The notes under the pieces: generated by a model
Seen by the model: only the letters and a program-made list of their open reading frames with translations
Told to the model about the DNA's origin: nothing
Database searches by the model: none
Shown: positions 20,869 to 26,173 of the stretch, in pieces
Layout of the letters: every line of letters begins with the position of its first letter
Position numbering within the stretch: position 1 is the first letter of the stretch
Made by a program: the position numbers and the translations under genes
Source of the DNA: an uncultured Mucilaginibacter sp.
GTDB lineage: Bacteria; Bacteroidota; Bacteroidia; Sphingobacteriales; Sphingobacteriaceae
Assembly: GCF_937859865.1 (NCBI RefSeq)
Contig: NZ_CALMAT010000119.1
Span: 1 to 38,702, forward strand
Length of the DNA: 38,702 bases
Direction of reading: 5' to 3'

Positions 20869-21447
20869 TTAAGGAACGATGACCAAATCGTAACGGTATA
20901 AAAGCCCGGCCAAATCATGCGCGGCAAACTTCGCTTTTTTCAGGTTGTTCATTTCCGGGTCAATCATAAAATTTTTGCAGGAAGTAAAATCAACCGTGCT
21001 TAAATTGGTTTGATCGAAAACAGCTTCATACAAATCACAATTGATGAATTTGCTTTTGCTAAGGTCGGCGCGGGTAAAATTTACGCTGTGCAGCTTGCAG
21101 TTTTCAAAACGGCTGGCGTTCATTTTTTTCTGGTCAAAAGAAGCATATTCCAGGTTGCAATCTATAAAGCAAACGGCAAAACCAAAATCGCGCGTACGCG
21201 AAAAGTTGGTGCCCAGCAATTTGCAGCCGCTGAAAACCAGATTGTTCATTTTGCAACTGTCTGCATTGATGTTGCTGAAGTTGCAGTTTTTGAAAACACA
21301 ATCGGTAAAGTTGTAATGCGAGAAAGAAGCGAAGGAGCAGTTGACGAGTTCACAATCTTCAAAATCGCGCCTTTCGGGTTTCTGCAAAGCAAAATCTATG
21401 TTTTGTAAAACTTCTTTTTCTGGTGTTGGGCCTTTCATCGGCTGCAA
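20869..21447 (-). CDS. Pentapeptide-repeat protein (Qnr/McbG-like fold)
   Basis: The 192-residue protein consists largely of pentapeptide repeats of the A(D/N)LXX type, read as units such as NCSFA, DCVFK, NCNFS, GCKLL, GTNFS, DCNLE, YASFD and DCDLY-like steps from about residue 30 to 160, folding as a right-handed quadrilateral beta-helix. The C-terminal stretch IDPEMNNLKKAKFAA followed by LAGLLYRYDLVI is typical of the Qnr/McbG-like branch. These proteins can mimic DNA and bind gyrase, but many have no known function. Starts at 21447 or 21438 (second ATG) are both possible. The gene is cytoplasmic; no signal peptide. Confidence 0.8.
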   Translation of the reverse strand: MQPMKGPTPEKEVLQNIDFALQKPERRDFEDCELVNCSFASFSHYNFTDCVFKNCNFSNINADSCKMNNLVFSGCKLLGTNFSRTRDFGFAVCFIDCNLEYASFDQKKMNASRFENCKLHSVNFTRADLSKSKFINCDLYEAVFDQTNLSTVDFTSCKNFMIDPEMNNLKKAKFAAHDLAGLLYRYDLVIVP

Positions 21448-21492: not shown

Positions 21493-22272
21493 TTAGCCTT
21501 CCTTTTCCTCCAAAAAAACCTTACTCAACATGTCGTACAGTTCCGGGTGTTTTTGTTTCAATTTTTCGGGCTTCCCAAAAAAATATTCGGAAGTTACGGC
21601 GAAGAACTCGGCCTCGTTGGTCATGGCGTACGGGTTGATGTCTGATTTTCCGTTCTCCATTTTTTTGATTTCGCGGTGTACCAGTTTCATCCAGGGTTCG
21701 GCATATTCAGGCGGCAAAAGCTGTTCGGGCACGCCGTCGGTTGCACCGTCTTCCTGGTCAAGCAAATGCACAAACTCATGAATCCCTACATTTTCAGCTC
21801 CCGCAGAAGCAGAAAAACCTTTCCGCAAAGCTGCGCGCGAAAGCAGCATTTGCCCGTTCATAAAACCGCTGCCAACCATGCCTGCCATTTCGCCTTTTCC
21901 TTCATCAAATTTAAAATCATTATTAAAGGCATCGGGATATAAAACAACATTGGTGAGGTGCGGGTAACGCCAGTTTTTAAACCTGAAAATCGGGATCAAG
22001 GCACTGGAAGCAACCAACACTCGGTCTAAATCTTCCAGCTCAAAACCAACGCCTTCCAAATGGGTTTCCTGCAAAAAAGCCACTGCCCTCAAAACAAAGC
22101 TTTCCTGCTGTTCCGGGTTCAGTTGCCGGTAAAAAGCCACATGTTGCTGCAAAAGCTGCTTGTAACTTTCTGTTTGTTCCGGTTGAATGACGGGTTCTGC
22201 CTTTTGCTTGTTCAGAAACAGATAAGCCATAAACAAAAGGACGGGCAAGGCAAGGATTAAATAAAGCATCAA
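21493..22272 (-). CDS. Zinc-dependent peptidase, MtfA (M90) family
   Basis: The 259-residue protein has an N-terminal membrane anchor (residues 2-20) and a soluble zinc-peptidase domain. The zinc motif is HEFVH at 165-169 inside NVGIHEFVHLLDQEDG, and the downstream acid is in NEAEFFAVTSEYFF, both hallmarks of MtfA (Mlc titration factor A). In E. coli MtfA binds the repressor Mlc and has aminopeptidase activity; no Mlc homologue is visible here, so only the peptidase fold is claimed. The membrane anchor is absent from the E. coli protein but is known in Bacteroidota members. Confidence 0.88.
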   Translation of the reverse strand: MMLYLILALPVLLFMAYLFLNKQKAEPVIQPEQTESYKQLLQQHVAFYRQLNPEQQESFVLRAVAFLQETHLEGVGFELEDLDRVLVASSALIPIFRFKNWRYPHLTNVVLYPDAFNNDFKFDEGKGEMAGMVGSGFMNGQMLLSRAALRKGFSASAGAENVGIHEFVHLLDQEDGATDGVPEQLLPPEYAEPWMKLVHREIKKMENGKSDINPYAMTNEAEFFAVTSEYFFGKPEKLKQKHPELYDMLSKVFLEEKEG

Positions 22273-23951: not shown

Positions 23952-24176
23952 TTAAACCTTGCGTGGCGGCAAATCAAAAGCTACGGCATTGTGTTCAAAA
24001 TGGCCTTTGTGCGAGCCATCGCAAAAAGGTTTATTGGTGGATAAACCGCATCGGCAAACCGAAACGATAGTCCTTCCCTGCAAACCGTAGTTGTTGCCCT
24101 GCATGTCCACAATCTCAAAATCGCCTTCTATTTTTACCGACCCGTTGTTGTTGATGGTTAGTTTTGTTGCTGCCAT
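23952..24176 (-). CDS. CDGSH iron-sulfur domain protein
   Basis: The 74-residue protein is a single CDGSH domain. The [2Fe-2S] ligands are Cys41, Cys43, Cys52 and His56 in CRCGLSTNKPFCDGSHKGHF, the exact C-x-C-x8-C-x3-H spacing. Such proteins hold a redox-active, partly labile [2Fe-2S] cluster (mitoNEET family); small bacterial forms are cytoplasmic with unknown partners. It is a single-gene unit convergent with the hypothetical gene before it and divergent from the DAC-like gene. Confidence 0.92.
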   Translation of the reverse strand: MAATKLTINNNGSVKIEGDFEIVDMQGNNYGLQGRTIVSVCRCGLSTNKPFCDGSHKGHFEHNAVAFDLPPRKV

Positions 24177-24378: not shown

Positions 24379-24409
24379 TTGCTTACCCGTTTAAATTAGG
24401 TTAGTTTTG
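24379..24409 (+). promoter_or_regulatory. Promoter of the DAC-like gene
   Basis: TTG at 24379-24381, a 20-base spacer and TAGTTTTG at 24402-24409 match the Bacteroidota -33 and TAnnTTTG -7 boxes. Transcription would start near 24416, which excludes a TTG start at 24407 and fits the ATG at 24440. Confidence 0.6.
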
Positions 24410-24439: not shown

Positions 24440-25624
24440 ATGAACAATGCCCTTTCCACCAGCTTAAACGAAAGAAGGATTTCTCAACCTACTTACCAGG
24501 CTGCTTTTGCGGTTTCGGAAGCAGTTGACCTTCATTTTAAAAAACATTTTAACGCGGCACGCTTAAACGCAGTGCAAGAACTGGCGCCCGAACCATCTGC
24601 CGAAGTTATTGAAGCGATTATTGATGTGGCTTTTTGGGCAAGCTTAGGCCGCGAAGAAGGCCGATCGCCCAAAATATCCCTTGCTTTTTTGCCTGAAGAA
24701 ATGGCCGGAATGCCTTTGGTGTTTAAACACAGGCTGCCGTTTAAAACACAAACTTTAACCAAACTGGCACCGGCAGTAGAGCGTCCGGGCATCCATTTAG
24801 GGATTTGGATAGAAGACGGCGAGCTGTATTTGTGGGGAACAACACGCGAAATCCCGGGCCTGTGCTTTGTGCTGGAAGTGGTTGAACCCGGCCTGTTGGT
24901 TGTAAAACACCGCCGGATAGATGGTTTAGGAAAGTTTGTAAACGTGGCCACACTAAAAGGCGACCAGATTAAAGTGGTGGATGAAATCAGCCAAAACGCA
25001 TCCGAACGCCCGCCGATCATCAATTCTTTGTTAGGCTTTACTTCTCATTACAGCAACAATGATGCTGATTCCATTAATGTGCTGGTACAGTTGGCCACTG
25101 CCATGCGTGCCCATGGTCGCGGCGGCGCGGTGTTGGTGGTTCCGGCAGATACGGACAACTGGCGCGATTCGATCATCCATCCCATTACTTATCCTGTGGT
25201 TTCGGCTTTTTCCGGGTTATCAGACCTGACGAAACAAATTGACCAGGAAAAAAACCTGCTTTTGTGGCAAAACATGCTACGGCAAGCTGTAGATAGTGTT
25301 GGCGGCTTGACGGCGGTTGACGGCGCAACCGTAATCAACGACCGGCACGAACTGCTTGCTTTTGGTGCCAAGATCGGTAGGTCGTGGAAAAGTAAACGGG
25401 TAGATCAGATCGTGCTTACAGAACCAGTGATCGGCAGTTCGGCCAGCGTAATCCATCCGGCTACTTTAGGCGGAACAAGGCACCTTTCGGCAGCACAATT
25501 TGTGTTTGACCAACGCGATGCCGTTGCCTTGGTTGCTTCGCAAGATGGCCGCTTTACCGTTTTTGCCTGGTCGCCGCTGGAAAACATGGTGCATGCGCAC
25601 CAGATTGATATTCTGTTGCTATAA
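24440..25624 (+). CDS. DAC-like (DisA_N-type) domain protein with N-terminal sensor-like domain
   Basis: The 394-residue protein ends in a region resembling the diadenylate cyclase (DAC) fold: LATAMRAHGRGGAVLVVPAD, then VDGATVINDRHELLAFGAKI with the DGA motif at residues 294-296, and GGTRHLSAAQFVF followed by AVALVASQDGRFTVF. Active DACs have DGA and RHR; here the second motif is RHL (347-349), so cyclase activity is doubtful. The front half (to about 200) resembles the putative sensor domain called DACNV in protein databases (from memory, not searched). A c-di-AMP-related or nucleotide-sensing role is inferred only. It is probably monocistronic, with its own promoter. Confidence 0.65.
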   Translation: MNNALSTSLNERRISQPTYQAAFAVSEAVDLHFKKHFNAARLNAVQELAPEPSAEVIEAIIDVAFWASLGREEGRSPKISLAFLPEEMAGMPLVFKHRLPFKTQTLTKLAPAVERPGIHLGIWIEDGELYLWGTTREIPGLCFVLEVVEPGLLVVKHRRIDGLGKFVNVATLKGDQIKVVDEISQNASERPPIINSLLGFTSHYSNNDADSINVLVQLATAMRAHGRGGAVLVVPADTDNWRDSIIHPITYPVVSAFSGLSDLTKQIDQEKNLLLWQNMLRQAVDSVGGLTAVDGATVINDRHELLAFGAKIGRSWKSKRVDQIVLTEPVIGSSASVIHPATLGGTRHLSAAQFVFDQRDAVALVASQDGRFTVFAWSPLENMVHAHQIDILLL

Positions 25625-25726: not shown

Positions 25727-26173
25727 TTATTTCTTTTTCCCTAAAACTTTAATCGCCCCGGCCGCTGCCAAACCGCCCAAGGTGTACCACAAAATTGTTA
25801 AAACTTTCGTTTCTGTTGTCCGGTCGCTGTGCGATTGGTTTAAGTTCATTTTAGAAGGTAAAAAAACCGCTCCCACTCCTGCCGCCAGCCCTAAAACCAA
25901 GCCCCGCCTCAACAAATGCTTCTTTTTCCCAAAACCAATCAGGCTGTAATACAAAGCATTGCTTAAAATATCGGCAGCTAAAGTGCAGGCGTACAACTCT
26001 TTTTGGGTGGAAGGAAGAGGCAAACCGGCTGCTTTCAACAATTTCGTCAGCGCTTCTTCCCCAATCAAATGGATATGCGGTGCGTCTTTATCTATCTTTC
26101 GGTAAGTTTCATGGATTAGGTTGAGCGTTAATGCGCCTGCCAATCCTCCGGCCAATGCTGTTGCTGTTTTCAT
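25727..26173 (-). CDS. Conserved hypothetical membrane protein
   Basis: The 148-residue protein is not assigned to a named family. Residues 1-20 are hydrophobic and Gly-rich (MKTATALAGGLAGALTLNLI), hydrophobic segments lie near 68-82, 90-106 and 125-142, and the tail is KVLGKKK. A hydrophilic HETYRKIDKDAPHIHLIGEE stretch with several His residues follows the first segment. This suggests a small inner-membrane protein with three or four spans. It faces away from the VF530 gene and no operon partner is apparent. Confidence 0.65.
   Translation of the reverse strand: MKTATALAGGLAGALTLNLIHETYRKIDKDAPHIHLIGEEALTKLLKAAGLPLPSTQKELYACTLAADILSNALYYSLIGFGKKKHLLRRGLVLGLAAGVGAVFLPSKMNLNQSHSDRTTETKVLTILWYTLGGLAAAGAIKVLGKKK

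Follow-up and report, generated by a model that had tools for sequence, protein, structure and literature searches.

Cyclic di-AMP (c-di-AMP) is a bacterial messenger made by diadenylate cyclases (DACs). A preliminary description of the DNA analysed here, a 38,702-nt stretch from an uncultured Mucilaginibacter sp. (the window), had pointed to a gene whose product resembles these enzymes and keeps their DGA motif (residues 294-296), but has a leucine in place of the last arginine of RHR (residues 347-349). Both observations proved to be exact. The locus raises the question of whether a protein carrying RHL may still be a nucleotide cyclase, a receptor that binds its ligand without catalysis, or an enzyme with a different product.

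The gene (24440..25624, + strand) consists of an ATG-initiated ORF at 24440-25621 and a stop codon reaching to 25624, and encodes 394 aa, a predicted soluble protein of 43 kDa. A longer form could start at a TTG at 24407, but we preferred the ATG because the TTG overlaps a candidate -7 promoter element. The corresponding candidate promoter, of the Bacteroidota type (TTG-N20-TAGTTTTG, 24379..24409, + strand), lies ∼30 nt upstream of the ATG; chance alone would yield 1.24 such matches in the window, so only its position is suggestive. This is the candidate for the promoter of its own that had been attributed to the gene; a scan for E. coli-type promoters returned nothing on the + strand. Transcription as a single gene is suggested mainly by the neighbours at 23952-24176 and 25727-26173, which lie on the opposite strand. 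Differences from two orthologues of the same genus were distributed over the three codon positions as 0.16/0.09/0.52 and 0.22/0.14/0.48, and 25 of 60 relatives contained a match to the gene, indicating that it is real and under purifying selection. It is present in a single copy in its own genome, and the orthologue of Mucilaginibacter arboris, which is close to the source organism, shows 79% identity.

The N-terminal part of the protein had been described as sensor-like. Profile searches identified it as DACNV, a probable sensor domain (Pfam PF21751, residues 47-135, 24578..24844, + strand), with 113.6 bits against a cut-off of 27 (E 5e-33), and the same profile matched all 27 aligned orthologues. 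A literature search of limited coverage found no paper naming this domain. The C-terminal part (approximately residues 211-394, 25070..25621, + strand) gave a different result, since the Pfam DAC profile (PF02457, DisA_N) reached 13.8 bits against a cut-off of 27 and covered residues 345-370 only. A similarly faint match occurred in 24 of the 27 aligned orthologues. DACNV proteins with an intact RHR also score below this cut-off (L069, L070, L126, L130 and L131), which indicates that the Pfam model under-detects the whole DACNV-linked branch. Comparison with 18 CdaA domains by hhalign paired DGA with DGA, RH with RH and SQ with SE at an E value of 0.0069, with a probability of merely 5.5%. Sequence searches of the PDB, with the single protein or with a profile of the DAC domain as query, gave chance matches and no DAC, and NCBIfam gave no match for the protein.

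Structure prediction was more informative. AlphaFold models of medium confidence were obtained for the whole protein (pLDDT 73) and for the DAC domain (pLDDT 80, pTM 0.80), and for each of them all 50 PDB matches listed by Foldseek were diadenylate cyclases (DisA, CdaA, CdaM and their kin) with probabilities of 0.99-1.00, the best single match being M. tuberculosis DisA. Because the superposition was loose (TM ∼0.5, rmsd 4-11 Å), we make no claims at the atomic level. The motifs also follow each other in the order of the DAC family (GG-L, DGA, GTRH, SQD). According to these models the C-terminal domain has a DAC fold, as had been proposed. Missing similarity to DAC profiles had been named beforehand as an argument against this proposal; the score below the Pfam cut-off goes half of that way, but it is overridden by the fold comparison.

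We then compared conservation across Bacteroidota, Acidobacteriota and Gemmatimonadota, using a set of 131 distinct DACNV proteins. The counterpart of the GALI motif, RGGAVLVVP (residues 227-235, 25118..25144, + strand), was recognised by its position and strand in the models, and its G228 occurs in 131/131 proteins. Inside the DGA motif (25319..25327, + strand), D294 and G295 are present in all 130 proteins with a letter there. TRHL (residues 346-349, 25475..25486, + strand) is the counterpart of TRHR, Leu349 standing for the third residue of RHR, while SQDG (residues 367-370, 25538..25549, + strand) is that of CdaA (V/I)SEE, with S, Q and D found in all 130 proteins with letters there. Asp369 aligns with the metal-binding Glu of CdaA SEE, so that an acidic residue is kept, as far as the alignment indicates. 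Wherever a letter is present, positions 294, 295, 345, 347, 348, 367, 368 and 369 are invariant, and T346 hardly varies.

Position 349, which ranks 153 of 375 in conservation, varies among hydrophobic residues. The distinct proteins carry there L (97 of 131), M (5), F (5), I (4) or V (2), T, S, Q and C once each, and R in only 14, which answers the earlier suggestion that conservation of RHL be checked in orthologues. The form GGTRH[L/M/F/I/V][S/A]AAQF is common to orthologues in Bacteroidota and Acidobacteriota. A sequencing error or a pseudogene as the cause of RHL was rejected, as the same class of residue occupies the position in more than 100 distinct proteins. Judged from this alignment, RHL is no one-off but the fixed signature of a subfamily that is both old and widespread.

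In a maximum-likelihood tree built from 75 of the 131 proteins, with the trait columns kept, one branch (support 100/99) separated all Arg-less proteins from the RHR proteins, with a single change in all bootstrap trees. The lone RHC protein falls among the RHR proteins and was assigned to them; two intermediates, RHS (L127) and RHQ (L128), sit on long branches and their placement is unsure. R349 is absent from the Arg-less clade and present in 14/15 members of the sister group. Two other positions differ in the same way: K311 (25370..25372, + strand) is found in 111/114 proteins of the Arg-less clade, the RHR clade having Glu (11/15) or Val instead, and Q353 (25496..25498, + strand) occurs in 114/114 proteins of the former and is mostly Arg (11/15) in the latter. 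K311 and R349 never appear together in the 131 proteins. As the changes at 311, 349 and 353 all fall on one branch, they represent a joint remodelling in one event and not repeated covariation.

What the loss of the third arginine may imply can be judged from characterised enzymes. In CdaA of L. monocytogenes, ATP is contacted by Leu31, Asp71, Thr102, Arg103, His104 and Ser122, by Glu124 through the metal and by the backbone of L88, G101 and E123, and the listed contacts do not include Arg105, which corresponds to the last position of RHR (PMC7288161). Substitutions D172A and R203A abolish the activity of Leptospira CdaA, and S222A leaves 47.5% of it (PMC12974146). By alignment, the counterparts of the CdaA side chains at the ATP and metal site are kept in the DACNV protein (D294, T346, R347, H348, S367 and D369), including those of the residues tested in Leptospira (D294, R347 and S367 for D172, R203 and S222). 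The RHR knock-outs reported are triple mutants in which RHR is changed to AAA, and no separate mutant of the third Arg was found in this literature (PMC3328451, PMC13022847, PMC4568413). Since the third Arg is off the contact list, the known mutants are triple alanine mutants and the contacting side chains are kept, it is not justified to conclude from RHL that no c-di-AMP is made. All 32 canonical CdaA genes that we examined encode the third Arg, and hence it must matter for something.

Taken together, we consider it somewhat probable (roughly 55%) that the gene encodes a soluble, stand-alone nucleotide enzyme of the DAC fold, gated by a sensor domain, with a conserved pocket and an RHL remodelling. 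DACNV would receive a signal and control the DAC domain, which would use the pocket typical of DACs to bind a metal and ATP or a related nucleotide. Most likely, two such domains dimerised head to head would condense the nucleotide into a cyclic dinucleotide, with c-di-AMP as the default guess. RHL, K311 and Q353 would remodel the rim of the site or the dimer surface; a pocket remodelled rather than deleted is suggested because position 349 lies outside the reported ATP contacts. From the residues kept, nucleotide binding is very likely and catalysis reasonably so, and the assignment of c-di-AMP as the product is tentative. Several results argue against this reading: the Pfam DAC score below the cut-off, the medium confidence of the models, the third Arg of all 32 CdaA genes, the loss of ATP binding in M. 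tuberculosis DisA when the whole of RHR is mutated (PMC3328451), and SQDG in place of SEE, where the metal assignment relies on alignment.

The genomic setting bears on how this protein relates to the known cyclases. In line with the preferred reading, its own genome offers a c-di-AMP context, as it also encodes a PgpH-type 7TM-HD protein and a canonical CdaA (134 bits). A DAC over the cut-off was detected in 43/47 other DACNV-bearing genomes and in 10/11 of a further set. As CdaA is nearly always found alongside, the DACNV-DAC protein is most likely a second, specialised protein and not the housekeeping cyclase. Four genomes, two of them from Gemmatimonadota (G355, G797) and G515 and G032, carry DACNV without a canonical DAC match; either these assemblies are incomplete or the DACNV-DAC protein is their sole DAC-fold protein. 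DACNV was found in 106/120 genomes of a Hymenobacter family sample, whereas phylum samples gave 8/296 for Bacteroidota, 18/247 for Acidobacteriota and 9/249 for Gemmatimonadota, and its occurrence in Sphingobacteriaceae is patchy. A 521-aa ORF of one Hymenobacter genome (L103 in G353) matches the DAC profile with 40 bits, over the cut-off, and contains DGA and GARYNSA for GTRHRxA, RHR being replaced by RYN; low-scoring DAC matches of similar size (480-545 aa) occur in G127, G851 and G915. No relatives were found on plasmids, phages or viral contigs, for which reason an origin in mobile elements was rejected, and none of the PADLOC profiles for anti-phage defence families matched.

The gene itself stands alone. 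Both neighbours are encoded on the opposite strand, a small CDGSH iron-sulfur protein transcribed divergently (23952-24176) and a 148-aa protein (25727-26173). Elsewhere in the window, a gene for a peptidase M90 (glucose-regulated metallo-peptidase; 21493-22272, - strand; E 1e-64) adjoins a pentapeptide-repeat gene (20869-21447). In 73 loci there was no conserved partner, only shadow ORFs, common histidine kinases and synteny at the species level. An MBL-fold hydrolase present at 7 loci was dropped as a candidate, given that its positions and orientations differ.

A first alternative, corresponding to the first option of the preliminary description (nucleotide binding without c-di-AMP formation), is a receptor or regulator: the DAC domain would have a nucleotide or c-di-AMP as its ligand and catalyse nothing, and it might, for example, pair with CdaA or an RHR-type DACNV protein. 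The loss of an arginine that all 32 CdaA genes carry, the near-constant presence of another c-di-AMP-capable DAC in the genomes and the inactivity of triple RHR mutants all agree with it. However, the first Arg, the His, the Ser, the catalytic Asp of DGA and the acidic residue aligned with the metal ligand are all invariant, and a pure receptor would not need the catalytic Asp so strictly; the lack of a conserved partner gene nearby also speaks against it. We therefore regard such a receptor as possible but unlikely.

Rather more doubtful is an enzyme whose remodelled site (K311, a hydrophobic residue at 349, Q353, and FGAK and TEP motifs) yields some nucleotide different from c-di-AMP, such as a cyclic dinucleotide that is mixed or contains guanine. 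The idea of another substrate had been raised before, and it gains some support from the linked K311 and Q353, near-fixed against E311 and R353 in the RHR clade, from the mutual exclusion of K311 and R349, from the proximity, by alignment, of K311 to an adenine-contacting strand position, and from G014, G311, G370 and G531, genomes in which both DACNV forms occur together and can coexist with CdaA. Linked changes on one branch nevertheless amount to one historical event, and K311 can be aligned with the adenine site only to within ∼2 residues. That the Arg-less clade represents a distinct class of nucleotide cyclases, making a non-c-di-AMP messenger beside the housekeeping CdaA, is likewise improbable. 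The last alternative, that the C-terminal domain is no DAC and that DGA and RH are chance matches, as the subthreshold Pfam score, the low hhalign probability and the PDB sequence search would allow, is highly improbable and already largely refuted by the Foldseek lists, which contain DACs alone for two models, by the order of the motifs and by paralogues that combine GTRHR with the same DACNV domain.

DACNV-DAC thus adds to CdaA a further conserved protein with a predicted DAC fold. To our knowledge, c-di-AMP signalling has been little studied in Gram-negative bacteria, and an active protein might point to a source of c-di-AMP or another nucleotide that is controlled by a sensor in these organisms. 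The activity of the RHL protein would also show whether a DAC requires all of the textbook RHR motif.

Among the known systems, CdaA/DacA (PF02457) shares with DACNV-DAC the DAC fold, as modelled, and the Asp, Thr, Arg, His and Ser of the ATP site. CdaA is membrane-bound and has HDGA, RHR and SEE, whereas DACNV-DAC has VDGA, RHL and SQD and shows neither the three N-terminal membrane helices of CdaA nor any other clear membrane segment (hydropathy over 19 residues peaks at 1.66, in a region of predicted strands). DisA is also soluble and has the DAC fold, but there the DAC domain is N-terminal and followed by a DNA-binding C-terminus; in DACNV-DAC it lies behind DACNV and ends the protein, with no Pfam match to an HhH domain. 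CdaS and CdaM resemble it in the DAC fold (matches to 2fb5 and 8ofj), but have different N-terminal parts and both depend on RHR. For DACNV-DAC proteins of the RHR type (for example L069, L126 and L215-L225) we found no experimental work. They display the same two-domain layout, DG, GTRH (GMRH in two) and SQDG, but they keep Arg349, mostly together with Glu311 and Arg353, and stand on the other side of the tree.
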